From: Sphingobacteriales bacterium 44-61
GTDB taxonomy: Bacteria > Bacteroidota > Bacteroidia > Chitinophagales > Chitinophagaceae
DNA length: 64,000 nt
Direction of reading: 5' to 3'
Assembly: GCA_001898405.1 (NCBI GenBank)
Contig: MKTW01000002.1
Span: forward strand, 556,175-620,174
A model generated the notes under the pieces. That model was not told the origin of the DNA and made no database searches. It was given only the letters and a program-made list of their open reading frames with translations. A program made the position numbers and the translations under genes. Positions 11,583-45,019 of this stretch are shown in pieces; the stretch's first letter is position 1; each line of letters begins with the position of its first letter.

Positions 11583-11939
11583 ATGAATAGTAAGAACAAT
11601 GCCAGAGTTTACAAAATGTCCTTTGCAAGCGTTTACCCGCACTATATCCAAAAAGCGGAGAAAAAAGGGCGGACCAAAGCGGAAGTAGATGAAATCATAT
11701 TTTGGCTGACGGGCTATAATGCAAAGACGTTCCAACAGCACCTCGACAATAAAACCAATTTCGAAGACTTTTTCAATAAAGCGAAAATCAATCCCAATGC
11801 TTCAAAAATCACGGGAGTGATTTGCGGCTATCGCGTGGAAGAGATCGAAGATAAACTAATGCAACAAATCCGTTACTTGGATAAGATGATTGATGAGCTA
11901 GCAAAAGGCAAGATAATGGAGAAGATTTTAAGAAAGTAA
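11583..11939 (+). CDS. DUF2200 family protein
   Basis: A 118-residue soluble protein. From Met12 ([20 protein letters not shown]) it matches the compact DUF2200 family: a conserved Y-P[12 protein letters not shown] start, [12 protein letters not shown], then [22 protein letters not shown], and a C-terminal helix that ends in lysines. Family members are cytoplasmic, about 110 residues long and of unknown function, so Met12 at 11616 is a plausible alternative start. The gene stands alone: about 100 bp of non-coding sequence precedes it, and a convergent hydrolase gene follows. Confidence 0.85.
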
Positions 11940-22700: not shown

Positions 22701-23621
22701 TTACTCCACTCCCTTCACGTTCATCTTCAATGTATAAACAGACTCAGAAGCAGTAATGAACAGTATATTCCTTTTCTTCCCTCCAAAACAAATATTGCCG
22801 ACCCACTTGGATGGTACAGGAATATGCCCAACCTTTACGCCCACCTTATTATAAATGGTAACACCAGAACCAGCCAAATAGAGATTGCCCTGGTTATCCA
22901 GTGTAATCCCGTCTGCTCCCTGTGGTGCAAATAATTCCTTCTCACTCAGATCACCATCTTCCCCGATCACATATTTATAGGTTTTATCGGCCTGTATATC
23001 GGCCACAAACAATGCTTTTCCATCCGGAGTGCCAACAATGCCATTAGGCCTTACCAGTTTATCTTCCACTACCCTCGCCTGCTTTGCGCCTTTAGGCAGG
23101 TAATACACTTTCATTCCATCCTGTGCAGGTTGCTTTCGCTCCCAGTAATCCCGCTGGTAATAAGGGTCTGTGAAATAAATGCCTCCCTTCAGATCTACCC
23201 AAAGATCATTAGGGCCGTTAAGTTGTTTACTTTCATAATTATCCAGCAACACTTCTTTTTCTCCTGTTGGTGAGATGGACCATAATTCACCTTTTTCATC
23301 AGCACAGGCAAGAAGATTACCCTGCCTGTCAAAATACAATCCATTGGAGCGGCCTGTCTTATCCATGAAAAGAGAAAGATTCCCTTTCACATCGTACTTC
23401 CATATTTTATCATTGGGCTGATCAGTGAAATAGATATCACCTTTTTTATTTACAGCAGGTCCTTCGGTGAAACTGAATTGGCTGGAGATCTTGTTGAGTA
23501 CCGCCCCTTTAGCTACTTCCCTGATCCCGTCTAAACTGTTTTGCCCGGCATCCTGTGCTAAAGCTAATTGACGGGTAAATAAAACGAGCGACACCAGTAA
23601 CAGGCGAAAACCTCTTTCCAT
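22701..23621 (-). CDS. SMP-30/gluconolactonase family protein, exported
   Basis: A 306-residue protein with an N-terminal signal peptide (LLLVSLVLFTRQLALAQ, residues 6-22) and a six-bladed SMP-30/LRE propeller. Conserved blade segments are visible: FTEGPAVNKKGDIYFTDQPND, SNGLYFDRQGNLLACAD, LNGPNDLWVDLKGGIYFTDP, RPNGIVGTPDGKALFVAD and GADGITLDNQGNLYLAG. Glu in FTEGP, Asn in NGPND and Asp in the later blade are the usual metal ligands. The family hydrolyses sugar lactones. As the last gene of the PUL it would act on a lactone made by the FAD oxidoreductases encoded upstream, which is inference. Confidence 0.9.
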   Translation of the reverse strand: MERGFRLLLVSLVLFTRQLALAQDAGQNSLDGIREVAKGAVLNKISSQFSFTEGPAVNKKGDIYFTDQPNDKIWKYDVKGNLSLFMDKTGRSNGLYFDRQGNLLACADEKGELWSISPTGEKEVLLDNYESKQLNGPNDLWVDLKGGIYFTDPYYQRDYWERKQPAQDGMKVYYLPKGAKQARVVEDKLVRPNGIVGTPDGKALFVADIQADKTYKYVIGEDGDLSEKELFAPQGADGITLDNQGNLYLAGSGVTIYNKVGVKVGHIPVPSKWVGNICFGGKKRNILFITASESVYTLKMNVKGVE

Positions 23622-23646: not shown

Positions 23647-24537
23647 TTAACGTCCGATCGCCGTCCCCTTCCTGTTGTGCCATTCACTGGCTGCGCCTAC
23701 CAGTGAAGCATGTTCCCCCAACTGGGTTACCCTCACCGGAATGTCCAGGCCATGATACTGAAATACGGCTTTCAGGGCAGGATAGAATCGGTTGAATGCT
23801 TTGGAGATATTGCCGCCGATCACGATCAGTTCCGCCGGCGTACTTCTTAATACAGACAGGAAAAGATCACCAAGATTGATCCCTAACTCTGTAAAGACCT
23901 CCTTCGCCACTTCATCTGTTTCTGCCAGCTCAGCCAGTTCCTTCACATTCGAAACATGCCTGCCCGAAACGCTGGCATATCTTGCTACCAATGCACCATG
24001 AGAGAAATAATCTTCCGCTATCCCATTTTTAAAAGGCATGCACCACAAATCTGCATCAACAGCACGTCCTTCTTTTGCGAATGCACTGCCAAAGCCGGTT
24101 CCAAGTGTTATACCGAAAACGGTATTATACCCTTTGGCAACACCGCTAAATAATTCCCCCTGCAAAAAACAAGCGGCATCATTGGTAAAAGTAATATCGG
24201 CCTTATCTGTATTCAATGCTTCAGCCAGCAGTTCTTTCACATTTAACCCATACAGTGACCTGTATTTCCCCTGATCTTTTATCAATGAAATGCCTTCATT
24301 ATAATCAAAAGGACCTGGCATAGCAATACCTGTGCGGCCAGATTGCAGCTGGTGTGAAGCAAAACAATCACGGATCACTGAAGCCCATCCGCCAACGATC
24401 TCTCCTGCTGTGCCATTAGCATTTACCGTATCCCTTCTTTGTGATCCGGGCAATATTTTTCGATCTGTAAGATTGATCAGGGCTGCTGTAATATGCGAAC
24501 CTCCTATGTCAACTCCCGCAACGATTGAACTCTTCAT
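23647..24537 (-). CDS. ROK-family sugar kinase-like protein
   Basis: A 296-residue protein, start at 24537 (MKSSIVAGVDIGGSHITAAL), where the ROK phosphate-1 motif begins; an upstream start would add 28 unrelated residues overlapping a repeat. It shows IAMPGPFDYNEG, the catalytic-Asp segment FTNDAACFLQGE, and ITLGTGFGSAF for nucleotide binding. The zinc site CxCGxxGCxE and the ExGH motif of typical ROK kinases are not present; that region reads DLWCMPFKNGIAEDYF. It probably phosphorylates a sugar or sugar derivative released by the PUL enzymes, but the altered site makes the substrate uncertain. It lies 25 bp upstream of the SMP-30 gene. Confidence 0.85.
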   Translation of the reverse strand: MKSSIVAGVDIGGSHITAALINLTDRKILPGSQRRDTVNANGTAGEIVGGWASVIRDCFASHQLQSGRTGIAMPGPFDYNEGISLIKDQGKYRSLYGLNVKELLAEALNTDKADITFTNDAACFLQGELFSGVAKGYNTVFGITLGTGFGSAFAKEGRAVDADLWCMPFKNGIAEDYFSHGALVARYASVSGRHVSNVKELAELAETDEVAKEVFTELGINLGDLFLSVLRSTPAELIVIGGNISKAFNRFYPALKAVFQYHGLDIPVRVTQLGEHASLVGAASEWHNRKGTAIGR

Positions 24538-24565
24538 AAAAACACTGAAACTGTTTAGATTACTC

Positions 24566-24625
24566 CTTTGTGCTCTTTGCGTCTTTGTGGGAGGGTCATC
24601 CCTCGAAGATGCAAAGAGCACAAAG
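24566..24625. repeat. Imperfect inverted repeat of the CTTTGTG family
   Basis: The left arm at 24566-24595 begins CTTTGTGCTCTTTGC; the right arm at 24600-24625 is its near complement, ending GCAAAGAGCACAAAG. The element fills the gap between the ROK start and the upstream GH92 stop. It resembles the larger copy at 45132-45233. Confidence 0.65.
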
Positions 24626-24628
24626 AAT

Positions 24629-26923
24629 TTACTTAACTGGATCCGATACAGAAAATGGATAAGCCGCTTCTTCTGTTCCCCTTTGCTTATTTGCTGCAGC
24701 AGATAAATTAAAATTCAATGAACCTCCATTCATCAACGCAGTATGCCCCAACCAGTTTTTAGTATATGGCCGGCCATTCATTGTTATCGCCTGCACATAT
24801 TTATTCTCTTTGGAACTCGTGGGCGAAGTAATAGTGAGCTTCTTTCCGTTTTCAAACCGTATACTCATTTTTTTGAACAACGGGGTACCTATTACATACT
24901 GATCCGTACCTGGGCAAACCGGATAAAAGCCCATTGCAGAAAATACATACCAGGAAGATGTTTGTCCATTATCTTCATCACCACAATAGCCATCGGGCGT
25001 GGGCAGGTACAGGCGGTCCATCACTTCACGTATCCAGTATTGTGTTTTCCATGGCTCACCTGCATAATTGTACAGGTAGATCATGTGCTGGATCGGCTGG
25101 TTGCCATGTGCATATTGTCCCATGTTCATTACCTGCATTTCCTTTATTTCATGGATCACTTTTTTATAATAGCTCTCATCGAATGTAGGAGGCATGATAA
25201 ATACAGAGTCCAGCATTTTCACAAACTCTTTCTTTCCTCCCATCAGCTTGATCAATCCGCGAACATCATGAAACACACTCCAGGTATAATGCCAGCTATT
25301 GCCTTCTGTAAATGCGCCACCCCATTTGAAAGGATTGAAAGGTGACTGAAAACTTCCGTCCTTGTTTTTTCCACGCATCAGCTTGCTGCTGTCGTCAAAC
25401 AGGTTGCGATAGTTCATGGCGCGTTTGGCATATAATTCCACTTCTTCAGCAGGGCGGCCCAAAGCTTTTCCCAGGCGGGAGATCATATAATCATCATAAG
25501 CATACTCTAATGTGCGTGCTGCATTTTCATTGATGCCTACATCAAAAGGCACATAGCCCAACTCATTATAATAGGTATAGCCCTTGCGGCCTACGGCCGT
25601 TAGCGGCCCTTCACTATTGGCATCTTTCAATAAAGCCTCATACAAAGTATGGATGTCGTAACCACGCAATCCTTTCAGGTAAGCATCTGCCACTACCGAA
25701 GCGGAGTTGTTACCGATCATGCTATTGCGGTAACCTGGGCTGCTCCATTCAGGCAACCATCCTCCTTCTTTATAAGCATTCACCAACCCTTCCTGCATTT
25801 CTTTATTCACTGAAGGGAATACCAGGTTCAGGAATGGATACAGGGAACGGAATGTATCCCAGAACCCGGTACCTGCATAAAGATAGCCGGGCAATACCTG
25901 CCCGTTATACGGACTATAATGAACGATCTTTCCTGACGCATCTTTTTCATAATGCTTTTGCGGGAACAACATGCTGCGGTAAAGGCAGGAATAAAAAGTG
26001 CGTGTTTGATCGGCTGTGCCGCCTTCTGCAATCACCCTCTCCAGTTGTTTATTCCAGGCAGCTTTGGCTTTTTTCTTTACCGTGTCAAAATCATCCTGTT
26101 GCAATTCCTGCTGCAGGTTCAATTCAGCCTGTTCAAAACTGATAAAGGAAGATGCAACACGTGCTTTTACCTGCTGACCTTTTTTTGTTTTGAACCCGAT
26201 CACCGCACCAGTATGATTAGCTTGCTTCTCCAGCACATCTTTCTCCAGCACTTTATCATTCCATAAATAAGTAGTAGTAAATGCCTGGTCCAAATAAATC
26301 ACGAAATAATTTTTGAACCCTTCGGGAACACCGCCTCTGTTCCGGGTGGTATAACCAATGATCTTTTTTTCCGCAGGTATTATTTTGATATAAGACCCTT
26401 TGTCCAGCGCATCGATCACCAGGAATGCACTATCCGTTGCGGGATAGGTAAACCGGAATGATGCCGCCCTTTCTGTAGACGTGATCTCTGCAAGCACATC
26501 ATGATCAGCCAGGTAAACGCTGTAATAATAGGGTTTGGAAACTTCTGCTTTGTGTGAGAACCAACTGCCACGGTCTGCTTCCCTGAACACAGCCTTGCCT
26601 GTTATTGGCATCAATGCAAACTGGCCATAATCATTGATCCATGGTGATGGCTGATGGGTTTGTTTAAAACCAACGATCTTATCCGCATCATAAGTATAAG
26701 CCCATCCATCTCCCATTACTCCTGTTTGCGGCGTCCAGAAATTCATGCCCCAGGGCAAAGCAATAGCCGGATAAGTATTGCCATTGGAAAAGCTATGTTT
26801 GGAAGCAGTTCCTACGAGTGGGTTCACCCATTCCACAGGGTCAGTTACCTGGTTTACCTGTTGCGCAGGCAGATCTATATTCGCTGCTGCAATACCAAAC
26901 AGTAAAAAGACTATTTTCTTCAT
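24629..26923 (-). CDS. GH92 family alpha-mannosidase-type glycosidase
   Basis: A 764-residue secreted enzyme; the start at 26923 (MKKIVFLLFGIAAANIDLPAQ) gives a clean signal peptide. It matches glycoside hydrolase family 92: the N-terminal VNPLVGT segment, WTYTYD-like substrate loops, EGNSWHYTWSVFHD, and the catalytic region GDEDNGQTSSWYVFSAMGFY at about residue 648. GH92 enzymes are calcium-dependent exo-acting alpha-mannosidases. It lies 10 bp after the FAD oxidoreductase with golvesin-like domain. A second, more divergent GH92 is encoded at 31011-33395 in the same locus. Confidence 0.93.
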   Translation of the reverse strand: MKKIVFLLFGIAAANIDLPAQQVNQVTDPVEWVNPLVGTASKHSFSNGNTYPAIALPWGMNFWTPQTGVMGDGWAYTYDADKIVGFKQTHQPSPWINDYGQFALMPITGKAVFREADRGSWFSHKAEVSKPYYYSVYLADHDVLAEITSTERAASFRFTYPATDSAFLVIDALDKGSYIKIIPAEKKIIGYTTRNRGGVPEGFKNYFVIYLDQAFTTTYLWNDKVLEKDVLEKQANHTGAVIGFKTKKGQQVKARVASSFISFEQAELNLQQELQQDDFDTVKKKAKAAWNKQLERVIAEGGTADQTRTFYSCLYRSMLFPQKHYEKDASGKIVHYSPYNGQVLPGYLYAGTGFWDTFRSLYPFLNLVFPSVNKEMQEGLVNAYKEGGWLPEWSSPGYRNSMIGNNSASVVADAYLKGLRGYDIHTLYEALLKDANSEGPLTAVGRKGYTYYNELGYVPFDVGINENAARTLEYAYDDYMISRLGKALGRPAEEVELYAKRAMNYRNLFDDSSKLMRGKNKDGSFQSPFNPFKWGGAFTEGNSWHYTWSVFHDVRGLIKLMGGKKEFVKMLDSVFIMPPTFDESYYKKVIHEIKEMQVMNMGQYAHGNQPIQHMIYLYNYAGEPWKTQYWIREVMDRLYLPTPDGYCGDEDNGQTSSWYVFSAMGFYPVCPGTDQYVIGTPLFKKMSIRFENGKKLTITSPTSSKENKYVQAITMNGRPYTKNWLGHTALMNGGSLNFNLSAAANKQRGTEEAAYPFSVSDPVK

Positions 26924-26933
26924 TTCGCTGATT

Positions 26934-28943
26934 TTATTTTTCGGGTACAAAAAGAATGGCATCTGCCGCTAACACACCATCTGCGTTTTTATTGCTGATA
27001 GATACATAAGAAGAAGAACCTTCAGGCAATTTGAATTTTCCCAGATGCACCCACTCACCGGAAGTTTGTCCTTTCACTATTATGTCTGCCGTTTTGATCA
27101 CTACTTCCTTTATTTCCTTTCCATCAAATATAATATGTGTTATCCGGGAAGAGGCATTCTGCAATCTTGGTCTTGAATAAGTATATATATCATAATAACC
27201 TGCTTTGTTGATATAGGGGCGAAACCGCACTTCTTTTTCTTCCTTTGGAGTAGGGCGGGCAATGAAGGTATTAGGTCCATAACCACCGCCTTTTACTACC
27301 GACCAGGTACCTTTCTTTTCCACATACAGGGAATCGCTATTATCGATAACTGTTTCACGGGGAGTGCCGTCAACCAGCGGATTTAATTTCAATTCTTCCT
27401 GCAATGCCCATACATGAATATCCTGCACAGCTTTCTTCTCTTTGAGAGACTGCACAGCGGCAAGCCCCGCAGATTGACCAAGCACCATAAACACCGGCTC
27501 CATGCGGATGGAACCATAACTGATATGCGTTGCGGACAAACAAACCGGCACCAGCAGGTTATTGCATTCATTTTTCTTAGGCACCAGTGAACGGTAAGAA
27601 ATGGGATAAGGCGCCAAATTGCCTTCTTCCACATCCCCTTCGTTTTTGACCATGCCATCGATCACGATCCTAAGACTGTTGTGTGAATCCATGCCATAAG
27701 CAGCCATTCCTATTCCATCCTTCACAATCTCTTTGGATTGACAGTTGGCCTGCGTCATCACATATTCACCGACCATTCTCCTGGCTTCACGTACATACAT
27801 CTGCCAGCTCCAGTTGCCATTGTCGGCATACTCATCTTTGGGATAACCCCAGTCAAGCATAAAATTGCGGACTGAATCGGGAATCCGTGGATCATGCCCT
27901 ATGAAATACAACAACCCTTTGTTATAGATCTCATGTTCCTTCTGTATTCTTGCTCTTGTCTCATAATCACCATCAGGATAATCCCAGTTCATACCGATCA
28001 TATCTGTTGAGAAGCCACCACCGTTATTGATATCTGTTTTATGGTTTGGCATCAGGTCAAACTTCAGGATCTCACGGATATCGTTAGGCGCTGTGAGTTT
28101 TGCAATGTAACGGGGAAGCAATTCATATTTCGTGGAGTCATATCCCGGAGGGCGTGTGATCGGGATCCTGTTAGCTGGATCATTCGTAAGGCAGATCCTG
28201 AAATTGTATGCCTGCACATGCTTATCACCGCTGCCAATGGGTGGCAGCTTTGCATCGCTGATGCCCCACAGCAATCCACTACTGGGATCACCGGGGATTT
28301 TGTAGGGGTCCACGCCATCCGGGATCTGGTTGCCTCTTTGCGGAGTCTTTGACGGTTGCACCTGCACGCCGTTAAAGGTTTCATTGTACTGACTGTTGGC
28401 TTCGCGGCCTACGGTATAGGAAACTCCTGCTCTCGCCATCAGGTCGCCTTCATAAGAACAATCGATAAATACTTTTGCTTTTACAGTAGTTAGTTTCCTT
28501 GGCTGAACAGATACATTCTCCAGTTGTATCTCCCTGATCGAACCTTTTTCTTTTTTAGCAGATATGATCCTGTTTTGCCTCAGCACTTCCACTTTGGCAG
28601 ATTGAATGTATTGTTCAAATACCGATTCAGCTACACTTGGCTCAAAGATCCAGGCTTCAAATTGGTTATAGTGTTTTCCAACACGGCGGTAAAAATCAAG
28701 GCCCAATCCTGTAACAGCATATTTATTGCCAATATCAGTGTAGCCTAATCCTCCTGAAGAAAGTCCGCCCAAATGTTTTCCTGGTTCTATCAGCAAAACG
28801 GATTTACCCTTCATTTTGACAGTGTAAGCAGCTATCACGCCTGCGGATGTGCCGCCGTAAATACACACATCATAAGTTTTTTGCGCCCCTGATGCCAAGC
28901 CCAGAATTAAAAAACTACAGGCCAGGAAGAACTTTTGTTTCAT
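26934..28943 (-). CDS. Secreted FAD-dependent oxidoreductase with C-terminal golvesin-like domain
   Basis: A 669-residue protein starting at 28943 (MKQKFFLACSFLILGLASGAQ), a clear signal peptide. Residues about 22-60 carry the FAD-binding fold: DVCIYGGTSAGVIAAYTV, then LLIEPGKHLGGLSSGGLGYTD, as in the FAD_oxidored (PF12831) family. Near the end of the catalytic part RMEPVFMVLGQSAGLAA closes the FAD site. The last ~140 residues resemble the golvesin C-terminal-like, carbohydrate-binding-type domain (AGYYDIYTYSRPR, GEWVHLGKFKLPEGSSSYV, GVLAADAILFVP). Substrates of this family are not established. It is one of three such enzymes in the PUL, and the only one with this extra domain. Confidence 0.88.
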   Translation of the reverse strand: MKQKFFLACSFLILGLASGAQKTYDVCIYGGTSAGVIAAYTVKMKGKSVLLIEPGKHLGGLSSGGLGYTDIGNKYAVTGLGLDFYRRVGKHYNQFEAWIFEPSVAESVFEQYIQSAKVEVLRQNRIISAKKEKGSIREIQLENVSVQPRKLTTVKAKVFIDCSYEGDLMARAGVSYTVGREANSQYNETFNGVQVQPSKTPQRGNQIPDGVDPYKIPGDPSSGLLWGISDAKLPPIGSGDKHVQAYNFRICLTNDPANRIPITRPPGYDSTKYELLPRYIAKLTAPNDIREILKFDLMPNHKTDINNGGGFSTDMIGMNWDYPDGDYETRARIQKEHEIYNKGLLYFIGHDPRIPDSVRNFMLDWGYPKDEYADNGNWSWQMYVREARRMVGEYVMTQANCQSKEIVKDGIGMAAYGMDSHNSLRIVIDGMVKNEGDVEEGNLAPYPISYRSLVPKKNECNNLLVPVCLSATHISYGSIRMEPVFMVLGQSAGLAAVQSLKEKKAVQDIHVWALQEELKLNPLVDGTPRETVIDNSDSLYVEKKGTWSVVKGGGYGPNTFIARPTPKEEKEVRFRPYINKAGYYDIYTYSRPRLQNASSRITHIIFDGKEIKEVVIKTADIIVKGQTSGEWVHLGKFKLPEGSSSYVSISNKNADGVLAADAILFVPEK

Positions 28944-28986
28944 AGTTATTTTTTTTATGAAATAATATTTTAAATGCTGCGCAGCC

Positions 28987-30210
28987 TTATTCAATATAAT
29001 CGAGGTCTTTTCCAAATGTCTCTTCCATTTTCCATACTGCCCATAAAGCCAGCAATGCAGTTCCCGCCAATATCAATCCTGCTGAACCAAGCACGCCCAC
29101 ATGTGCAGTCCCCAGTAAGAACAAAGGAGTGAACAGGTTCACACTTCCCCTAACAAAATTGGGGACTGTGGTTGCCACTGTAGCACGCATATTCGTACCA
29201 AACTGTTCTGCTCCTATGGTCACAAATAATGCCCAATAGCCGATCGCAAAACCCAGTAACAGGCAAAGGCCATAAAACACAGCCAGGCTTTGTGTTCTTT
29301 GTAATAAATAGATCGCTACTATTCCACAAGTCAGCAATACGAAAATGGCTACTGTTTTTCTCCGGCTTTTCAGCATCTGGCTGAGAATGCCACTGCTCAT
29401 ATCTCCGAGTGAAAGACCGATATAAGAAAACATAACAGCCTTTCCGGCATTCACCGGTTCCGTTAATCCAATTGCTTTTCCAAATTCAGGTGAGAAGGTG
29501 ATCAGTATCCCGATCACAAACCAGATCGGCAAACCGATCATGATACAACGCAGGTATTTTAAAAGCCGTTTCTTTGAAGTGAACAACATAAAGAAATTAC
29601 CACGACTGGTATTCTTTTCTTTAATGTGTTTGAAAATACCTGATTCAAACACATTAAAACGCAATACCAGCAAAGCCAGGCCAAGGCCACCACCGATAAA
29701 GTAAGCAATCCTCCAGTCGTACATGTCTGCAATAAAATAAGCCAGCACTGCGCCAAGCACGCCCACAGAAGCAACCAGTGAAGTGCCATAGCCTCTTATT
29801 TCTTTTGGCAATACTTCGGCAACCAGGGTAATGCCGGCACCCAATTCACCGGCAAGACCAATGCCTGCGATAAAACGAAGCAATGCGTACTGGTCAATGT
29901 TTGTTACAAAACCGTTTGCAATATTGGCTGCTGAATATAAAAGAATAGACCCAAATAATACCGACAGGCGGCCCTTCTTGTCACCCAATATCCCCCAAAA
30001 GATACCGCCGATCAGCATACCGGCCATCTGCATATTGATCAGGTAAATGCCCTTACTCAGCAATTGATCGTCCGGTACCTGCAAAGCATGAAGGCTGGGC
30101 ACGCGGACAATGCTGAATAATAAAAGATCGTAGATGTCTACAAAATAGCCAAGAGCCGCTACGATCACAGGAATGGAGAACAGGGAACGGGCTACGGACT
30201 TATTAATCAT
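28987..30210 (-). CDS. MFS sugar/acid transporter of the PUL
   Basis: A membrane protein of 407 residues from the ATG at 30210; an in-frame ATG at 30243 would add 11 residues. About 12 hydrophobic segments are visible. MFS signatures are present: GGIFWGILGDKKGRLSVLFG after helix 2 and RFIAGIGLAGELGAGITLVAE in helix 4, a pattern of the sugar- and organic-acid-porter branch. It probably imports the monosaccharide or oxidised product across the inner membrane. The gene lies between the SGNH hydrolase and the golvesin-domain oxidoreductase. Confidence 0.88.
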   Translation of the reverse strand: MINKSVARSLFSIPVIVAALGYFVDIYDLLLFSIVRVPSLHALQVPDDQLLSKGIYLINMQMAGMLIGGIFWGILGDKKGRLSVLFGSILLYSAANIANGFVTNIDQYALLRFIAGIGLAGELGAGITLVAEVLPKEIRGYGTSLVASVGVLGAVLAYFIADMYDWRIAYFIGGGLGLALLVLRFNVFESGIFKHIKEKNTSRGNFFMLFTSKKRLLKYLRCIMIGLPIWFVIGILITFSPEFGKAIGLTEPVNAGKAVMFSYIGLSLGDMSSGILSQMLKSRRKTVAIFVLLTCGIVAIYLLQRTQSLAVFYGLCLLLGFAIGYWALFVTIGAEQFGTNMRATVATTVPNFVRGSVNLFTPLFLLGTAHVGVLGSAGLILAGTALLALWAVWKMEETFGKDLDYIE

Positions 30211-30251
30211 AAATGGTGACTGTTTGATGCCGCCATGCGGCAATTATTTTA

Positions 30252-30989
30252 TCAGGATAATAATTTTTTCAAGTAAGCCGGATAGCTTTCTCCATCTACA
30301 GATCCATCACCACGGGTAATGCTGTCGCCAAAACATACAATGCGCTCTACCGGCAATTGATTGAATTGAATAAACTGGCTCACAGCCAAACCCAAAAAGC
30401 GGTATCCGTTTGGAGTAGGGTGCACACCATCGTTTTTTTTGCTGTTCTCTTCATTGCGCAGGAGGCTGTCTTTATCCGTTCCGATCTTTCCCACTTTTTC
30501 GAATAGCGACCCTACATCAAAAAAAGAAGCCGACTTCTCTGCAGCCACTTCTTTAATGATCGTATTCATAGCGACTCTTTTACCGGAAGGTCCTTCGGGT
30601 TGAAAGAAGTCTGCAGGATGGCGTGTCAGCAAATAAGGTTCATAAAAAGGAAGAATGGTCATCAGTAACAGTTTACTGCCACTGTCCATGATCTTACCAG
30701 AAAGCTCACGGAGATTAGTCCTGAACTTATCAGGAGGCACAAACTTGCCATTGTTCATATCATTGGTACCGATCATCATGATGGTCAAACTCGGTTTATG
30801 TGCCAGGCAATCGGTATCGATCCGCTTCAACAGATTATTGGTGTTATTACCGGATATACCAGCATTCACCACAAGTTCCAATGCTCCGCTCCGTTTATTC
30901 GTGGAAGACGCAGATGCCTGCAATAAGCCTGCACTTCCCAGTGTTGAGGCAAGGATGGCTGACCGGCGGATAAAATCTTTTCTGTGCAT
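30252..30989 (-). CDS. SGNH/GDSL hydrolase with circularly permuted motif order
   Basis: A 245-residue exported hydrolase. The N-terminus (MHRKDFIRRSAILASTLG) resembles a Tat-type or Sec signal peptide. Motif order is unusual. The Gly block GISGN is at residues 44-48, block III GTND at 74-77, and the Asp-His block DGVHPT at 187-192. The nucleophile block GDSITRG, normally first, is at 221-227, followed by the helix ESYPAYLKKLLS that ends the protein. All catalytic residues are present (Ser223, Gly44, Asn76, Asp187, His190), so an active circular permutant is likely. SGNH enzymes remove acetyl or other acyl groups from glycans; within this PUL a deacetylase role is inferred. Confidence 0.88.
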   Translation of the reverse strand: MHRKDFIRRSAILASTLGSAGLLQASASSTNKRSGALELVVNAGISGNNTNNLLKRIDTDCLAHKPSLTIMMIGTNDMNNGKFVPPDKFRTNLRELSGKIMDSGSKLLLMTILPFYEPYLLTRHPADFFQPEGPSGKRVAMNTIIKEVAAEKSASFFDVGSLFEKVGKIGTDKDSLLRNEENSKKNDGVHPTPNGYRFLGLAVSQFIQFNQLPVERIVCFGDSITRGDGSVDGESYPAYLKKLLS

Positions 30990-31010: not shown

Positions 31011-33395
31011 TTAATCAATAATGGTAGACATGGAAGGAGGCGCATCTTCCGGTTTGCTGCCCCAGCGTTGATTGGGTTTAGGCCCGAGGTCAAGCACCAG
31101 CTTTCCTCCATTCACCAGTTCACTATGATAAAACCAGGGAGATCTCAAAGGTTTGCCGTTCAGGCTGGCTGATTGGATATACCTGTTCTTATCTGTGCTT
31201 TTGGGAGCTTCGATCACGAATGTTTTGCCTTTATAATAATCTTCATCCAGGTGAATAGTGATTTTGGTAAAGATGGGACTTCCGATTTCATAGACCGGTT
31301 TAACGGCTCCGCCTCCATCCATTTCAAACAGACCGATCGCGCTCATCACGAACCAGGCACCGCCCTGTCCTTCATCTTCATCACCAGGCCAGCCATGTGC
31401 AGGCGTGAGCCCATAGTATTTATTCATGATCTCTCTTACCCAGTATTGCGTAAGCCAGGGTTTGCCCGAATAATTATACAAGTAAGCAGATTGCATTCCC
31501 GGCTGGTTGCCATGGTTCACAGCCGGCAAAGGACTTCCATGCTGACGGAAATTCATCGTTGCCCCATATTCAAAACCCCTGGTAAGCCGGGCATTGAATG
31601 AATCTTTACCGATCATTTTTACCAGCGCATTCACATCATGCGGCAGGAAGAAATTATACTGGAAAGCATTTCCTTCCACAAACCCTACCCAGGAATAGCG
31701 AGGGTTCTTTGCTTCACTTTGGGATAAATAAAATTCCAGCCATTTCCCATCCTTATCCTTCCTGCGGAAATAACGGATGGTTGAATCGAAAATATTTTTA
31801 TAGTTATATGCGCGTTGGATAAAATAATTATAATCTTCATTTTTTCCCAGCGCTTTTGCCATCTGTGCCACGTTCCAATCATCAAAAGCATAATCGATCG
31901 TGTTGGAACTCGGACCTTCGTACGGTGTACCAAAAACTTTAAAACGGCTCCAGTTACTGCCATCGGGTACATAGCCCAGCTTTTTATAGATATCCAGTTG
32001 CCTGTTGCCGGCCAATCCTCCACAAGGGTGGGCAATGCCCTGCTCGGTTTGCAACTTCTTCATGGCAGTATACGCTTTCTCCACATCGAAATTGCGGATG
32101 CCTTTCTGGAAAGCACTGTTCATTAAGGTTATTTCATGATTACCGACCATGATATCACAATACTCCAGACCAATAGGGCCATTGGGTAGCCAACCTCCTT
32201 TATCAGACATTTCGATGAATGACCTGATCCAATCGTTGGAATACTTCGGTGTGATCAATGACCAGAGTTGATTCAGGTTCCATTGCGCACCCCAGAATGC
32301 ATCACTGCCCAGCATAGGGGAAGAAGGATCTTTTACCTGTTGTACCTGTTCGCACATATCAACATACTGCCCATCCACATCACTGAAAGTGGTGCGGGAA
32401 CAATAAGCCCGGTAGAAATTTGTATAGAATTTTCTTCTTTCGTCTTCAGTGCCACCTTCCACTTCGATCCTGTTAAGGATCTTCGCCCATTCTGCTCTTG
32501 CGTTTTGCCTTACTGCATTAAAGTCCCAACCGAATGGTTCTGATTCCACCTGCAGGTTTTTCCTTGCCTGCTCAATGCTGACGAAAGAGATGGCAGTTTT
32601 CAATTGTATCACTTCACCTTCTTTGGTATTGAAGTTCAGGAAAGCGCCCACATCTCCATGTCCCCAATTGTATGAGGCAATACTGTCTATATCCGCATTC
32701 ACCCAGGTGCCGAACGATTTCATCGGCTTGTCAAGCTTCGCTACAAAATAAATGGTGTAGTCGTTGGAGAGGCTGGCAAACCAGTTGAACATTTGCTGTT
32801 TGCAAAAACCCTCGATCTCATAATCATTTACTTTTTTAATGGAGGCCCAATCCACCTCGTAAGGATATTCAGTAGGTATTTTCAGATCGAAAAGAATGCG
32901 GGAAGAATTGGAAGCCGGAAAAGTATAGCGTTGAAAACCGGTACGGTTGGTGCTGGTCAGTTCTGTTTTAATGCCATAGTCTTTCAGGAATACAGAATAG
33001 TAACCAATGGAAGCAGATTCAGAAGCATGATCAAACCGGGAACGGTAACCGGAATCCGGTTGATTGATCTTCCCCGGTTGGGTTTGCAAAGGACCCGTTA
33101 CCGGCATTGTCAGCAAGCCGGCCATTGCCCAGCTATGTATATGGCTGAAACCGGCAATATTATCTGTTGCATAATTATATCCTGCATGCGTACCGTCTTC
33201 TTTATTATCCGGGCTCAGTTTTACCATGCTGAATGGCATGGAAGGGCCGGGATATTGCATCCATCTTACTTCCGTGGTGCCGATCATCGGGTCAACATAG
33301 TCGACCGGTTCCTTTTTCTGCGCAGCCGCTTGCAAAACGTTCAATACAGCAATACAGATCAATATATTTCTCATCCTTTTCATGACTGGAATCAT
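31011..33395 (-). CDS. GH92 family glycosidase, divergent copy
   Basis: A 794-residue secreted enzyme. Met1 overlaps the upstream stop as ATGA; Met5 and Met8 are also possible starts (MKRMRNILICIAVLNVLQAA is the signal peptide). Family 92 features are VDPMIGT near the mature N-terminus, GFSHIHSWAM, VEGNAFQYNFFLPHD, and GDEDEGQGGAWFVMSAIGLF at about residue 671, where the first GH92 has GDEDNGQ. The two GH92 proteins are not recent duplicates, so different linkages or positions on one glycan are likely. The ATGA overlap indicates translational coupling with the preceding FAD oxidoreductase. Confidence 0.92.
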   Translation of the reverse strand: MIPVMKRMRNILICIAVLNVLQAAAQKKEPVDYVDPMIGTTEVRWMQYPGPSMPFSMVKLSPDNKEDGTHAGYNYATDNIAGFSHIHSWAMAGLLTMPVTGPLQTQPGKINQPDSGYRSRFDHASESASIGYYSVFLKDYGIKTELTSTNRTGFQRYTFPASNSSRILFDLKIPTEYPYEVDWASIKKVNDYEIEGFCKQQMFNWFASLSNDYTIYFVAKLDKPMKSFGTWVNADIDSIASYNWGHGDVGAFLNFNTKEGEVIQLKTAISFVSIEQARKNLQVESEPFGWDFNAVRQNARAEWAKILNRIEVEGGTEDERRKFYTNFYRAYCSRTTFSDVDGQYVDMCEQVQQVKDPSSPMLGSDAFWGAQWNLNQLWSLITPKYSNDWIRSFIEMSDKGGWLPNGPIGLEYCDIMVGNHEITLMNSAFQKGIRNFDVEKAYTAMKKLQTEQGIAHPCGGLAGNRQLDIYKKLGYVPDGSNWSRFKVFGTPYEGPSSNTIDYAFDDWNVAQMAKALGKNEDYNYFIQRAYNYKNIFDSTIRYFRRKDKDGKWLEFYLSQSEAKNPRYSWVGFVEGNAFQYNFFLPHDVNALVKMIGKDSFNARLTRGFEYGATMNFRQHGSPLPAVNHGNQPGMQSAYLYNYSGKPWLTQYWVREIMNKYYGLTPAHGWPGDEDEGQGGAWFVMSAIGLFEMDGGGAVKPVYEIGSPIFTKITIHLDEDYYKGKTFVIEAPKSTDKNRYIQSASLNGKPLRSPWFYHSELVNGGKLVLDLGPKPNQRWGSKPEDAPPSMSTIID

Positions 33396-35290
33396 TTTTT
33401 GTTTTTGGTTTTTTCAAAGATCCATTGCAATACATCTCCCCTTTTGCTGTTCACCGTAAAGTTTTTCTTCAGTTTGATCCCGGACAGTTTTTCCCAATCA
33501 GCCAGATCCGTTGCGCTTGCTTTATCATCCAGTTTCGCTTCCCAACCCGGAACATAACCCTGCAGGCCGAGGAATTGCAAAGCCCTGAACTGAGGATGAT
33601 CCGGTTTCACATCTTTATAATAAATAAGAATGGAGTTTTGATTGATCAGTTCATCCTGTACTTTCTTTATAGATACCTTTTGTGCGGTTTCTTTTGTTTC
33701 CATCGATACAACTGCTGCCACCCCTGCAGCCTGGCCTAAAGCCATCCAGCAAGGTTCCATACGCAGCGTGGCCAGTCCAAGATGCGTGGCAGATGCAGGT
33801 ACCGGCGCCAGTAGATTGGAGATATTTGGAGGTACGATCACACCATAAGGAACAGTGTAAGGAGCCGCACCGTAACTTAAAAATCCTTCCAGTGTATGTT
33901 TGCCTTTCTCGCGTTTGCGTGTAGCGTGTGAATCAATACCATAATGACTGGCCGTTAAGCTTGAAGCGTACACAGGAGGGCGGCCACCTGTTTTAACCAC
34001 CGTTGCATCTGCAGCAGTGAACAGGTACATCCCTCTCATCCTTCTTCCTTCACGTACATATACCTGCCGGGGAAAATTGCCGTTATCGGTAAACTCATCA
34101 TTGGCCAATCCCCATTCTTTGCACTCTTTGCGAAACCATTCCGGCAAAGCAGGATCATTTTGCCCAAACCATAAAAGACCCAATGTATATTCTTTCAAAC
34201 GTTGCGCAAATCTGTCGCGCCATTCCCAGGATGAACTTGGCCAGGCCCAGTTCTCTTCCGGCAGATCAGTTGATACCAAAGCACGGTGCTGGTTATTTGC
34301 ATCAGTCTTGCCATTGGGCAGTATCACTTTGTTTACCAGCCGCTGCATACCCTGTGGCATAAACTTGCCCGTAGGCGGCAATCCCTGTGCAACCAGGCGG
34401 GCATTGGAATCCTTTTGCGCCTGCGTCATTTGTTTATATTCGATACCTGCATGATGACCGGTTAGTACATCCTCCACAATAGAAGCATATTCTTCCCGGT
34501 TATAGTTAGCCGGTTGAGGAATGGCTACTCTTTTTGCAGGATCAGTGGTCAGGCAAAGGCGGTAGTTATATGCCTGGATAGCATTATCAGCCATATTGGT
34601 AGAACCATCTTCCTGCGCATCGCTTGCCCATAGCTTGTATACAACGCCGGCAAAAGGTTCATTGTATTCTTTAATGCCTTCCCTTCCCAATGCAAAAGGA
34701 ACACCTGCCGCTGCAATAAGATCGCCTTCGTAGCTGGCATCAATGAAGAATTTGCCGGTGTACTGTTCTGTCTGTTTGGTTTCCCTGTTCAATACTTTAA
34801 TACCGGTAATGGTATTACCATTCATGATCAGGTTGGCAGGGTCAGCATCAAACTGGCGGTTGGTAAGCAGGGTCACCAGCGGTGCTTCCTTCAGCATATC
34901 GTGCAATACCATTTCCCCAACAGAGGGTTCAAAATGATAACCGTTCACACAATCTTTTACCTGCTGCGATTGAGCGCCATATTTATTGACGTAATGCGTT
35001 TTGATACGGTTGATGAATTCGAGAAATAAACCGCCTGTTGCTCCGCGGGTGATCAGATCAGTAGCACCGAGGCCATTCGCCACCAGCCCTCCCGGATGTG
35101 TTGTCCGCTCCAGGATCAATGAACGTTTGCCCATTTTACCGGCAGCAATACCGGCCATGATGCCGGAGGGGGTTCCACTTACAATAACAAGATCATAGGC
35201 ACCCGTTTGCGCATGAGCAGAAAACAATGTTCCCAAACAAAGAAGAAGGGAGAGACAAAGGCATTTCATACACTTGATCGTTTTTTTCAT
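33392..35290 (-). CDS. Secreted FAD-dependent oxidoreductase, second in the PUL
   Basis: A 632-residue protein with a signal peptide (CLCLSLLLCLGTLFSAHAQ). The FAD-binding motif reads DLVIVSGTPSGIMAGIAAGK followed by LILERTTHPGGLVANGLGATD, as in the FAD_oxidored (PF12831) family. RMEPCWMALGQAAGVAAVV lies near the end of the catalytic domain. The last ~70 residues (FRALQFLGLQGYVPGWEAKL) resemble an SLH-like helical module. It is the first gene after LacI, and the candidate LacI operator (35295-35310) lies almost against its ATG. Met8 at 35269 is a possible later start. Substrate unknown. Confidence 0.88.
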   Translation of the reverse strand: MKKTIKCMKCLCLSLLLCLGTLFSAHAQTGAYDLVIVSGTPSGIMAGIAAGKMGKRSLILERTTHPGGLVANGLGATDLITRGATGGLFLEFINRIKTHYVNKYGAQSQQVKDCVNGYHFEPSVGEMVLHDMLKEAPLVTLLTNRQFDADPANLIMNGNTITGIKVLNRETKQTEQYTGKFFIDASYEGDLIAAAGVPFALGREGIKEYNEPFAGVVYKLWASDAQEDGSTNMADNAIQAYNYRLCLTTDPAKRVAIPQPANYNREEYASIVEDVLTGHHAGIEYKQMTQAQKDSNARLVAQGLPPTGKFMPQGMQRLVNKVILPNGKTDANNQHRALVSTDLPEENWAWPSSSWEWRDRFAQRLKEYTLGLLWFGQNDPALPEWFRKECKEWGLANDEFTDNGNFPRQVYVREGRRMRGMYLFTAADATVVKTGGRPPVYASSLTASHYGIDSHATRKREKGKHTLEGFLSYGAAPYTVPYGVIVPPNISNLLAPVPASATHLGLATLRMEPCWMALGQAAGVAAVVSMETKETAQKVSIKKVQDELINQNSILIYYKDVKPDHPQFRALQFLGLQGYVPGWEAKLDDKASATDLADWEKLSGIKLKKNFTVNSKRGDVLQWIFEKTKNKK

Positions 35291-35334: not shown

Positions 35335-36342
35335 CTAGGCAGATTCCCTGTTAATGATTTCAGTGGGTATGCGTACCAGCTTTTTGGCACTCTTTCTTGT
35401 TACACCCAGCTCACCCATTAATATTTTTACAGCGGTTCTTGCGATATCTTCTATTGGCTGACTGATGGCTGTTATAGATGGCGTACAGAGATCGAACACC
35501 TCGTTATCATCAAAGCAAATTACTGCCAGGTCATCCGGTATTTTCAGTTTCAGTTCCTTGATCGCCTGCAAGCCATGAATACCGATATAGTTGGTGGCAA
35601 ACACAACTGCCTCAGGAGACTCTGTTTTAAGATAGGTCTTGATCTTTTCAATCGCTTCTTTCTTTCCCCCATCCTTATAATCCACTTTCAGTATCTGCTT
35701 TTTGCTTTTGTAAAGATGCTGCTTTTCCAGCGCTGCGATAAATCCTTTCTCCCTTTCCTTCATCTGCATCAGGTCAAGATCGGGAGTGATAAAGCTGATC
35801 TTCTTATATCCCTTTTTGATAAGCAGGTTCACGCCTTTTACTATGCCTTCAAAGTTGTTGACCATTACATGGGGACATTCCATGTCTTCAAAATAACGGT
35901 CGATCAATACCAGTGGAATTTTACGGTTGATAAGTTTTCCGATCTTATTGCGCATACCGGATGTAGGTGTGATAAGATAACCATCCACTTGCTGCTGCTG
36001 CAACATATCCAACAACCCCTCTCCTTTTTCATCATCATTCTCTGTACTGCAATACACCACTTTATAATCAAAAAGATTGGCTTCTTCTTCAATTGTTTTG
36101 GCAAGTGTGGAAAAGAAATGGTTGGCAATATCTTCCACTATCAGTCCTATGATCTTGGTTTGCCCGGTGCGCAGGGCAACGGCAATATTATTGGGACGAT
36201 AGCCTGTTTCTTCTGCTACTTTCAGGATCCTGCTGGTCAGTTCTTCACTGATCCGCATTTCCTTGCTTCTTCCGTTCAATGCAAATGAAACAGTGGTGGG
36301 TGATACGCCTACGATCCTGGCCAGTTCTTTTAGTGATGCCAT
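35335..36342 (-). CDS. LacI-family transcriptional regulator of the PUL
   Basis: A 335-residue repressor-type regulator. Residues 1-22 are the LacI helix-turn-helix (SLKELARIVGVSPTTVSFAL), followed by a hinge (YRPNNIAVALRTG) and a periplasmic-binding-protein-like ligand domain (KIIGLIVEDIANHFFSTLAK; VVFATNYIGIHGLQAIKE; LAVICFDDNEVFDL). It lies inside the PUL between the GxGYxYP gene and the second FAD oxidoreductase. Two identical 16-bp near-palindromes, one upstream of SusC and one just after this gene, are its likely operators. The inducer is probably a sugar released by the locus. No ECF sigma/anti-sigma pair is seen, so LacI appears to be the local regulator. Confidence 0.92.
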   Translation of the reverse strand: MASLKELARIVGVSPTTVSFALNGRSKEMRISEELTSRILKVAEETGYRPNNIAVALRTGQTKIIGLIVEDIANHFFSTLAKTIEEEANLFDYKVVYCSTENDDEKGEGLLDMLQQQQVDGYLITPTSGMRNKIGKLINRKIPLVLIDRYFEDMECPHVMVNNFEGIVKGVNLLIKKGYKKISFITPDLDLMQMKEREKGFIAALEKQHLYKSKKQILKVDYKDGGKKEAIEKIKTYLKTESPEAVVFATNYIGIHGLQAIKELKLKIPDDLAVICFDDNEVFDLCTPSITAISQPIEDIARTAVKILMGELGVTRKSAKKLVRIPTEIINRESA

Positions 36343-36411: not shown

Positions 36412-38124
36412 TTAACGGTCATTGATCACTTTCCTGGTAGCTTCGGGGTCATGCTTCATCCTGATCCTCCACAGAAGCTCTTCTACCGATACCACCGTTG
36501 TATGCCCATCGATCCTTTCTTTTGTCCACCACACAGCCGGTACCCCCTTGTGGGCCGCATCATCTTTCATGCCTTTTACCGGATCTGCTTTGCCTGATGA
36601 TGGGTCGGCAAACTGCGACCAGGCATGAACGATCGTCCAGTCCAGTTTGCTATCACCTGATAAGGTACTGTCCGTATTTATCCAGTTGGCAAGAGCTGCC
36701 GGATTGCCTGACCCCGGCCTGGGCAGGTTGGCCCAAAGCTGGTAGCGGGCAGCTACTACCGGTATCTCGGTCCCTTTTTTATTTTTTACCCAGAACACTT
36801 TTCCATGTCCGCCATTATAAGGTGAATATTGTACGGCGATCATGCCTGTGAGGTCGTCTATTTCCTCTGCATAGATCCTGTAAGCTTTCATGGCCGCTTC
36901 GCCAGATATATTCCGGCAAATAAATCCAAATACTTTGGTACCCGTACGTTTCATTTGTGCATTGATCTTTTGGGCATAATCCCGCAATATCTTCTCCGGC
37001 ATACCGGTGCTTTTGGCAAACAGGTCAGGGTAATAATAACCACCTCCGTATTCCACCACCGATGCAAGATCGGTTTGTGTGCCCGCCAGGTAATTATATA
37101 CATCACGGCCTGCTTGTGAAAGATTGAGCACGCAGGAAGTATACGACATCGGGAGCCGGTTCCTGTAATCATTCCCCCAGTATTCTTTATTATTCAGGAA
37201 ACCGCCGAAAGTCCATTGCATATTATCTCCATCACTTAATACGAATGAATGGAAATTTCCTTTTTTTTCCCAATCAATTTTTGCAGGGTCCACCCCTTTC
37301 AACTTCACTGGTTCCTCTGCAGATGGAATAGACAGCAGCGCAAGGTTCATACACCAATCGGTAGCTGTATTGATCAACCCGTAACGTGTGCAGGGTTCTA
37401 TCTGTTTGAATTCATCTCCTTTATTCCATCCTATCACGGGTGAAACAGGACGCACCCATTTGAGGATGGTGTACAACACACTATCCACTCCATAATACAC
37501 CATGCTTTTATGGGCAATGGCATAATCCCTGTTGTTGGAAAATTTCGGGTTGGCCAGCACCAGCAAACCCGGATTCAGTTGGTTTTTCAGTTCATTAAAA
37601 ATAATAGTGTCGGGTTGCCGGGTGGTAGCATCTGCAAGTTTGGTCAATCCCAATTTCTTTGCAGCAGCTTCCTGCGAAATATCTACCAGTATACCTTTTT
37701 GCAAACCAGCATACACAGTTGCCAGGTTGATGGAATTATCCTGCTTCGTCACATCATACAACACATAACCCTTTACAACTCCTTTTTTAGCATACCTTTT
37801 TACCAGCTCCCATACTTTATATTCTCCTGCTTTCTTTGCATCCAGCCTTTTCATCAGCGATGCATAATAGATCGCATAATCCGGATTGGGGGTAGAGATC
37901 CAGACAGCTTCGCTGAATGTTCCTTCGTTCACAGCCTGCGCTGCCAGTCCGGACACAGATTGAGCGAGGTTCATTTCCCGCAGGTCTGCGGCACGCGCTA
38001 TTTTACAGGTGCTGACAGACCGTGGCGCTTTCTGATCAGGCCACCAACCATCGCCTGCGCAAACAGAAAGACTCCAGGCAAATAAGAACAGTACCAGTAA
38101 TATCTTATGGTTGTTCATTGTCAT
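36412..38124 (-). CDS. GxGYxYP domain protein, secreted
   Basis: A 570-residue protein with a signal peptide (ILLVLFLFAWSLSVCAG). It carries the defining motif near residue 360 as EYGGGYYYPDLF, and an upstream Asp-rich segment FVLSDGDNMQW near residue 300, matching the GxGYxYP family (N- and C-terminal domains). The family is thought to act on carbohydrates because it occurs in polysaccharide loci, but no activity has been established to my knowledge. Its start overlaps the stop of the preceding FAD oxidoreductase by one base (TAATG), so the two are translationally coupled. That makes a joint action on one substrate likely. Confidence 0.88.
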   Translation of the reverse strand: MTMNNHKILLVLFLFAWSLSVCAGDGWWPDQKAPRSVSTCKIARAADLREMNLAQSVSGLAAQAVNEGTFSEAVWISTPNPDYAIYYASLMKRLDAKKAGEYKVWELVKRYAKKGVVKGYVLYDVTKQDNSINLATVYAGLQKGILVDISQEAAAKKLGLTKLADATTRQPDTIIFNELKNQLNPGLLVLANPKFSNNRDYAIAHKSMVYYGVDSVLYTILKWVRPVSPVIGWNKGDEFKQIEPCTRYGLINTATDWCMNLALLSIPSAEEPVKLKGVDPAKIDWEKKGNFHSFVLSDGDNMQWTFGGFLNNKEYWGNDYRNRLPMSYTSCVLNLSQAGRDVYNYLAGTQTDLASVVEYGGGYYYPDLFAKSTGMPEKILRDYAQKINAQMKRTGTKVFGFICRNISGEAAMKAYRIYAEEIDDLTGMIAVQYSPYNGGHGKVFWVKNKKGTEIPVVAARYQLWANLPRPGSGNPAALANWINTDSTLSGDSKLDWTIVHAWSQFADPSSGKADPVKGMKDDAAHKGVPAVWWTKERIDGHTTVVSVEELLWRIRMKHDPEATRKVINDR

Positions 38125-39752
38125 TATTCTTTTCCTGCAGGCAGATCAGCCAGTGTTTTTAATTTATGTTCCAGCAAAGCTCCCTGGCTGCGCAGCTTAT
38201 CTCCTAATACTTTTACATCAATATCCTGTACTGCTTTACCTTCTTTGATCGCCAGCACAGCTGCATTCCCTGCAGCCTGCCCCATGATCATGTACTGAGG
38301 TTCCATACGGATAGTGGAATACACTACATGGCTGGAGGAAACACAAACTGTTACCAACAGGTTGTTCAGTTCTGTACGCTTTGGCGTGAGCACACGATAA
38401 GGGATCTGGTAAGGAATATGTTTCATTCTCTCCTGCTCTGTCCGTTGCGGTGTGCCTTCATATTTAAGAATGCCTTTTTCATCAACCCAGGCCTGTACCC
38501 GATGCACATCGAGACCATAAGAACCCAATCCAACCGGGTCTTCTTTCTGCATTTCAGAAACCACATCTTTTTGTATCATCACCCAATCACCTTTCATCCT
38601 GCGGCCTTCGCGCACATACAGTTCATAGGGCCAGTTATTATTGTCGGCAAATTCATCTTTCGCCAATCCCCATTTATTGAACTCGTCCCTGTATTCCTTC
38701 GGAAGCCTTGGATCATTGGCCAGGAAATAAACAAATCCCTGTACATAGTTGATATGGTCCTGCCAGATGGCTGCTCTTTTTTTGTAAGATCCATCAGGAT
38801 AATCCCAACTGCCGCCTACATAATCAGCATTGTTAAAATCAACTTTGTTGTTGGGCACTTTGCCTAAGCCTGGGAATGTTTTAGCAGCAGCCTCTGCAGC
38901 ACCCTGCTTTTCGATTGAGCCCAGCGTATTGCGGAGCAAATCAGTATAACGCCGGGGATCATATCCCTTTGGCTTGGGGAAAGGAACCAGGTTATTCTTA
39001 TCATTTGTCAGCGATAACCTGAAATTATAAGCCTGTGTTTTTTTATCACCGGAACCAACAGGACCAGGCGGAGTCCTTTGCACACCTGGCAACAACTTAC
39101 CATTCTCATCATACGCACTTTGTGAACCAAATGCATCGCGCACACCAGCCGAATATTCACTGTACAGGCTCTGCGCTTCGCGGCCCACTGTATAAGAAGC
39201 TCCTGCAAAAGCCATCAGATCACCTTCATAAGTAGCATCAATAAACACTTTGCCGCTATACACTTTCCCATCTTCCATCGTGACCGATACGATCTGTCCA
39301 TTCTTTTTCTTCACCCCCCCCTTCTCTTTCAACCGTTGACCATACAGCACGGTCACTCCTGCCTCACTCACCATATCATTCAATATCTTCTCTGCCACAT
39401 GCGGCTCCGGGAACCACGCTGCAGAATCCTTCGCATTCGTCTGATAATATCTGCCTGCACGCAGATACACTTCCTTAGCATACCCGCCAATCACGTCCTT
39501 CCTGCCCACATCAGTCGCAGAAAGCCCGCCAGACACCATTCCACCAATATGCTTCTTCGGCTCCAATACCACCACCTTCATTCCCTCCCTTGCAGCACTC
39601 ACTGCCGCAATCACTCCCGAAGCCGTTCCGCCATACACCACCACATCATAACTATCCTCTACTGTTTTCTCTTTCCTAAAAGAAAACAACCCCACACACA
39701 ACATCCCCACTATAATCACATACCACCTGCTTTTTAATAAAACCTTTTTCAT
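38124..39752 (-). CDS. Secreted FAD-dependent oxidoreductase, third in the PUL
   Basis: A 542-residue protein with an N-terminal hydrophobic signal ([16 protein letters not shown]). FAD motifs are [20 protein letters not shown] and [41 protein letters not shown] closes the domain (FAD_oxidored family). Unlike its two paralogues in the locus it has no extra C-terminal module. It is the first enzyme gene after SusCD and is coupled by a one-base overlap to the GxGYxYP gene. Sequence divergence among the three oxidoreductases suggests separate substrates or positions rather than recent duplication. Confidence 0.9.
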
Positions 39753-39830: not shown

Positions 39831-39852
39831 ATTCATGCTTATTCGTGCTTAT
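39831..39852. repeat. Short tandem repeat beside the SusD stop
   Basis: ATTCATGCTT at 39831-39840 is followed by ATTCGTGCTT at 39841-39850, with another ATTCGTGG at 39803-39810. It overlaps the SusD stop codon. It may be a remnant of a dispersed repeat, but the similarity is short. Confidence 0.3.
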
Positions 39853-44791: not shown

Positions 44792-45019
44792 GGTTATGGC
44801 ATTAATAAGCAATAAATATCCTTCGGGCTACGTCAGCACCTTTTAATGGTAACGTACCCGTTTTTCCACGGAACTATTTCAGCATAATGGCCGGCTGCTA
44901 AAGCAACTGGCGGGGTGGCTGAAAGAAAATAATATTGATAAGGTTAAGAAGGGAGTAAGCTTCTCGGGCTGATAAAGTGATGTAGCATGGCAATCGCAAT
45001 TTTGAGGTTTGGGATAGTT

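Follow-up and report, generated by a model that had tools for sequence, protein, structure and literature searches.

How is an apparent SGNH hydrolase to be understood when its nucleophile block stands at the end of the chain and not at the beginning? The SGNH superfamily is a large class of enzymes named after the order of its blocks, and it is this order that is changed in one gene of the window, the stretch of 64,000 nucleotides from Sphingobacteriales bacterium 44-61 that we analyzed. The open reading frame lies on the minus strand (30989→30252), begins with ATG and encodes 245 amino acids. Both its translation and our alignment A3 give the block order Gly–Asn–Asp/His–Ser (G-N-H-S), i.e. 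II-III-V-I, and the serine of the GDS motif, Ser223, is located 22 residues before the C-terminus. The features of the gene are the following.

30252..30989, minus strand: predicted circularly permuted SGNH hydrolase, 245 aa, order G-N-H-S (translation, PF13472, model)
30903..30989, minus strand: putative N-terminal export signal, residues 1-29, with twin-arginine-like IRRSAILAS, leading into beta-2 (read from sequence)
30846..30860, minus strand: block II GISGN, residues 44-48; G44, G47 and N48 invariant in alignment A1
30759..30770, minus strand: block III GTND, residues 74-77, with oxyanion-hole Asn76; invariant in A1, G and N invariant in A3
30414..30431, minus strand: block V DGVHPT, residues 187-192, predicted catalytic Asp187/His190; D and H invariant in A3
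30309..30329, minus strand: block I GDSITRG, residues 221-227, predicted catalytic Ser223, C-terminal; C-x-G-D-S-x-T invariant in A3
30255..30284, minus strand: predicted closing helix alpha-1, residues 236-245, new C-terminus (model secondary structure, H206-214 in mature numbering)

The four motifs and the closing helix stand in the translation exactly where the preliminary description of this DNA, which named no strand, had put them. The export signal at residues 1-29 may be of the Tat type; several relatives start with M-x-RR-x-FL. In our reading the gene product is very probably an exported SGNH hydrolase with a circularly permuted chain, opened between blocks I and II.

The first evidence comes from rotating the sequence. 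The native protein matches the profile PF13472 (Lipase_GDSL_2) in two stretches, the best of which covers profile positions 32-177 (82.6 bits, 6.2e-23). With the C-terminal piece placed in front, the match becomes one stretch covering 1-177 of 178 positions (94.0 bits, 2e-26). Both scores lie above the curated cut-off of 32.9 bits, and PF00657 behaves in the same way on rotation. Matches to PDB entries also improve (7c2a, from 5.2e-7 to 5.7e-10) and span the new joint. Since the linear order I-II-III-V is absent from the native protein and is restored by rotation, we file the protein as a permuted variant of Lipase_GDSL_2 and not as a plain member. When 28 family members were turned through every position and scored against an HMM of canonical Bacteroidota SGNHs, the best rotation fell just ahead of GDS in all 28, with a gain of 8-18 bits over the native order. 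Six canonical controls peaked unrotated; they were part of the HMM training set and so are not independent, and they show only that the rotation method behaves.

An AF2 model built with 13 sequences reached pLDDT 83.5, and one built on A3 (31 sequences, signal removed) reached pLDDT 94.5 and pTM 0.91. In mature numbering, residues 4-184 of the model match the canonical chain from beta-2 onward, a strand at 187-191 leads into GDS, and a helix at 206-214 follows. VIA-align against 1yzf gave Z 17.0 over 155 residues with rmsd 3.1. High Z was also found to acetyl xylan esterases and Bacteroides acylhydrolases (Foldseek, VIA-align), and these two kinds of enzyme are the closest solved relatives. 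Being sequential, both aligners left residues 215-245, including block I, essentially unaligned. The predicted structure has the SGNH three-layer fold, the placement of block I lying outside the aligned part; Ser223 would presumably come close to His190. Compared with Lipase_GDSL_2 structures (1yzf, AlAXEase 7ddy, Axe2 3w7v), the protein shares all blocks (GDS, G, GxND, DxxH) and the same fold over ~155 residues (Z 14.6-17.0), but it has block I with beta-1/alpha-1 at the C-terminus. For none of the family members did our search find an assay of activity or an experimental structure.

How could such a chain still work? The opening would lie in the loop that follows block I and its helix alpha-1 and leads to strand beta-2 with block II, whereas a short linker of ~7 residues (210-216) would bridge the former C- and N-termini. 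Beta-1, the Ser223 turn and alpha-1 would be made last, yet they should pack at the usual position in the sheet. Ser223 would then act with His190/Asp187 and the Gly47/Asn76 oxyanion hole, as in canonical SGNH enzymes; Gly47 is presumably the block II oxyanion-hole glycine, judging by alignment to TesA-type enzymes. In SGNH chemistry the serine attacks the ester carbonyl while His and Asp relay a proton (SGNH review). Applied here, Ser223 would attack the ester carbonyl, His190/Asp187 would relay the proton, and the oxyanion would be held by the amide of the serine, the amide of the block II glycine and the side chain of Asn76.

How well are these residues preserved among relatives? We used two alignments, A1 with 12-13 homologues of 36-70% identity to the window protein, and A3 with 31 sequences from several families (the window protein, 28 bacterial and 2 phage sequences). 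A1 has 34 invariant columns, and GDS lies within the last ~20–40 residues in all its homologues. C219, G221, D222, S223 and T225 are invariant in A1 and also in A3; the C-x-GDS-[IL]-T motif near the C-terminus is kept in 31/31 rows of A3 and in a third phage protein (L136). The set S223, G47, N76 and D187/H190 is invariant in A1; in A3 the serine remains invariant, as do Asn of block III and both Asp and His of block V, and G47 is kept in at least 90%. Conservation of this extent is more than a chance motif would show. Blocks II and III are spaced by 32 residues in 23/23 rows examined. The cysteine C219 (window 30333-30335), two residues ahead of GDS, is itself present in every one of the 31 A3 sequences.

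In the block I tail, three near relatives gave dN = 0 at dS 0.24-0.43, over only 33-34 codons. Between the window and its nearest relative, dN/dS is 0.195 in this tail and 0.093 elsewhere, where dS is near saturation. The tail being so short, the result is supportive only, though it points to purifying selection on block I. An active enzyme would fit both the conserved residues and this selection.

The neighbouring genes, all on the same strand, are listed below.

41573..44812, minus strand: SusC-like TonB-dependent receptor (PF07715/PF13715)
39849..41552, minus strand: SusD-like protein (PF07980/PF14322)
38124..39752, minus strand: PF12831 FAD-dependent oxidoreductase c (PF12831 3e-103)
36412..38124, minus strand: GxGYxYP putative glycoside hydrolase (PF14323)
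35335..36342, minus strand: LacI-type regulator (PF00356/PF13377)
33392..35290, minus strand: PF12831 FAD-dependent oxidoreductase b (PF12831 2.4e-82)
31011..33395, minus strand: GH92 family protein, directly upstream of the SGNH gene (PF07971/PF17678)
28987..30243, minus strand: MFS sugar transporter, directly downstream of the SGNH gene (PF07690)
26934..29015, minus strand: PF12831 FAD-dependent oxidoreductase a with Golvesin_C domain (PF12831 7.5e-108)
24629..26962, minus strand: second GH92 family protein (PF07971 5.5e-179)
23647..24621, minus strand: ROK family sugar kinase (PF00480)
22701..23621, minus strand: SMP-30/gluconolactonase-like protein (PF08450)

No GDS was found upstream of the SGNH gene, nor is there room for one, as the GH92 gene ends 21 bp before the ATG. 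Downstream we found no SGNH body; the MFS transporter gene follows at once, so the terminal GDS does not open a further SGNH gene, and a fusion with a downstream SGNH gene is ruled out because no such gene is present. It is therefore hardly credible that the frame is a truncation artefact, a canonical SGNH protein without its N-terminal GDS that reads into the start of a second one as a broken hybrid: duplication with fusion is the usual route to permutation and two relatives (G145, G046) do carry broken copies, but the same order recurs in 31 diverse intact sequences of one clade, the tail appears to be under purifying selection, and neither a GDS remnant upstream nor an SGNH continuation downstream exists. 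Loss of an N-terminal GDS, which the preliminary description had named as the outcome that would speak against permutation, is countered by this conserved clade and the lack of an upstream GDS; the clade and the selection test likewise rule out a pseudogene.

Permuted SGNH folds are already known from AlgX/AlgJ and PatB1, with the order H-S-G-N and altered motifs (PMC9487903, PMC4148444). The alginate O-acetyltransferases AlgX/AlgJ resemble the window protein in being circularly permuted, but they have the H-S-G-N cut, GTSYS, DxH and Tyr for the block III Asn (PMC9487903, PMC4148444), in contrast to G-N-H-S, GDSIT, DGVH and GTND here. The DHHW family, with the secondary cell wall O-acetyltransferase PatB1, also has a circularly permuted SGNH core, but with KDS, TDHHW, DxRY in block II, a beta-sandwich cap and the AlgX-like H-S-G-N cut (PMC9487903), whereas the window protein has GDSIT and DGVHPT. 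That the protein is a transferase-type, SGNH-like member of one of these families is very improbable. The shared permutation of the fold (PMC9487903, PMC4148444) speaks for it, but their chains are cut between blocks III and V and ours between I and II; they carry GTS or KDS together with DxH or TDHHW, and their oxyanion hole has Tyr or Arg, while the window protein keeps GDS, GTND and DxxH and matches Lipase_GDSL_2. Neither the AlgX/AlgJ set (H-S-G-N; GTSYS, DxH, Tyr) nor the DHHW set (KDS, TDHHW) occurs in it, and motif order refutes the identity. A G-N-H-S permutant, cut between blocks I and II, was not found in the open-licence literature that our search covered, and the arrangement may thus be a new one.

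Did the permutation arise once? Our first tree held 65 rows of rotated permutants and canonical SGNHs, and it placed 28 permutants on one side of a branch with support 99/95. The second tree, enlarged by one bacterial member, by three domains from phages and by canonical rows of greater distance, kept the permutants together at 92/94, below the starred level. Against the rotated profile, canonical rows scored 85-96 bits and permutants 225-251, and by these scores no canonical relative close enough to date the permutation was found. It is improbable that the permutation arose repeatedly and that bacterial and phage permutants are convergent. Convergence would agree with the several long branches of the second tree and with its lower support (92/94 against 99/95), which came with the inclusion of phage copies and more distant canonical rows; the identical cut point and C-x-GDSIT in all permutants, which stand together in the best tree and in 92% of bootstrap trees, argue against it. 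The trees support the permutants as one clade, which would probably have originated by duplication and fusion, the usual route, with both ends trimmed afterwards. No two-domain intermediate with GDS at both ends was flagged when the loci collected by then were scanned with a pattern. The rotation tests, the confident model and this single clade of like-permuted homologues support the circular permutation first proposed from the motif order, and we regard it as well supported that the SGNH fold is permuted throughout the clade and that its catalytic residues are intact.

The permutants come from Bacteroidota and from phages, and the distribution of the gene is sporadic. In an order sample of 398 genomes, 21 had the gene at E <= 1e-25, one of them broken; in the phylum sample and the class sample (395 genomes) only four each had it, the window's own included, and the one other sampled genome of the genus gave no match. 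Named hosts are Pedobacter sp., Flavobacterium algicola and Sinomicrobium oceani. A plasmid search gave no match over 80% of the query. This patchiness suggests horizontal transfer or loss. In one relative (G046; L066, ~11754-11852) a remnant of a second permuted SGNH, with GVS for GDS and with stops, lies between two PF12831 genes, which suggests a decayed duplicate of a flavoprotein-esterase pair. In another (G145; L014 / L074) a 79-aa open frame, a broken copy, holds only the C-terminal part of a permuted SGNH and adjoins a PF12831 gene. Two loci whose matches cross stop codons (L015, L016) gave nothing under the strict pattern.

Permuted SGNH domains also occur in three viral contigs. In L112 the domain is standalone and precedes an endolysin, with genes for an Erf-like protein and a DNA polymerase exonuclease also close by. 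The L136 gene is surrounded by baseplate wedge genes and an endolysin, and its protein ends with CVGDSITYG...YPAQLKILLNT. Longer, tail-type proteins carry the permuted domain at their C-terminal end in L113 and L136. Lipase and tail fibre families are among the PHROG matches, and Foldseek against viral models returned ordinary partial matches only. Phage tail SGNH esterases (PHROG 6102, 8460) likewise carry an SGNH domain in tail-type proteins, but Gordonia phage Lambo gp5, characterised by name, has block I first, unlike the three contigs. Lambo gp5 and a Nonomuraea match had suggestive alignment ranges and were rejected as permutants, both having block I first; DobbysSock gp27 showed no clear GDS on reading and was not placed.

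What, then, might the enzyme do? SusC/SusD, two GH92 genes, GxGYxYP, LacI, ROK and MFS are co-oriented on the minus strand, as in a SusC/SusD polysaccharide utilisation locus, and the glycan-utilisation context named in the preliminary description is borne out by SusC/SusD, the two GH92 genes, the ROK kinase, the LacI regulator and three PF12831 flavoproteins. That description had further expected a homologue clade tied to GH92/PF12831 loci. The PF12831 part stands: a PF12831 gene lies within 2 kb on the same strand in 20/29 permutant loci, which are not independent, several being from one genus (g8). GH92 is rare near permutants and no general partner; that part of the expectation held for the window and a single close relative (G004) only. 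SusC/SusD are present in many of the 29 neighbourhoods. PF12831 matches number at most 10 per genome in all but one of 20 genomes counted; there are two in G007, two in G121 and one in G833, and all three genomes have one of them directly adjoining the permutant. A literature search on PF12831 in polysaccharide utilisation, or on 3-keto/FAD in such loci, returned nothing.

Loci without PF12831 have SDR, ADH, MR_MLE or BNR genes among others. Three permutants (L072, L034, L070) stand beside MR_MLE, SDR, ADH, SSF or BNR instead of PF12831, the last of them with no obvious signal peptide, and they are possibly a second functional branch. In the window itself, 22701-44812 combines three PF12831 flavoproteins and an SMP-30/gluconolactonase-like gene in one SusC/SusD locus, a possible sugar-oxidation route.

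The likely role is that of an exported carbohydrate O-acylesterase beside a PF12831 flavoprotein, the substrate class being read from the neighbours only. The enzyme would remove O-acyl, probably acetyl, groups from glycan fragments, beside the flavoprotein and glycosidases, and for members with signal peptides the site would be the periplasm; given the export signal and the SusC/SusD locus, the enzyme most likely de-acylates glycan fragments in the periplasm after their import. The flavoprotein and the esterase may act on the same oligosaccharide. Members may differ in role, as the phage copies and the loci with MR_MLE, SDR or ADH genes nearby suggest. A rival reading keeps the permuted fold and makes the protein an acyltransferase, or gives it another substrate, either an ester that is not a carbohydrate or a lactone produced by the PF12831 flavoprotein. 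We think this unlikely, yet worth keeping in mind: the PF12831 linkage is tight, an SMP-30 lactonase-like gene lies in the locus at 22701-23621, and SGNH proteins include transferases and thioesterases, but hydrolysis of acyl esters is what the oxyanion residues, which are canonical, and the nearest relatives of solved structure, acetyl xylan esterases and acylhydrolases, point to.

Beyond the carbohydrate esterase role we can propose, tentatively and with doubt prevailing, a previously undescribed permuted SGNH subfamily that serves as a dedicated PF12831 partner in glycan breakdown by oxidation and ester/lactone hydrolysis, with transfers between the glycan loci of bacteria and the tail proteins of phages. 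The rearrangement has stayed hidden because family searches label the permutants as ordinary GDSL lipases. The intact catalytic residues and the new opening point would mean that the fold tolerates a cut beside its nucleophile segment, and in the permutant clade nature provides a set in which the origin of permutations can be studied. For gene families that are poorly characterised, the constant company of PF12831 is a lead open to testing, and from the phage copies it seems that tail-type proteins may carry a tool for removing esters.
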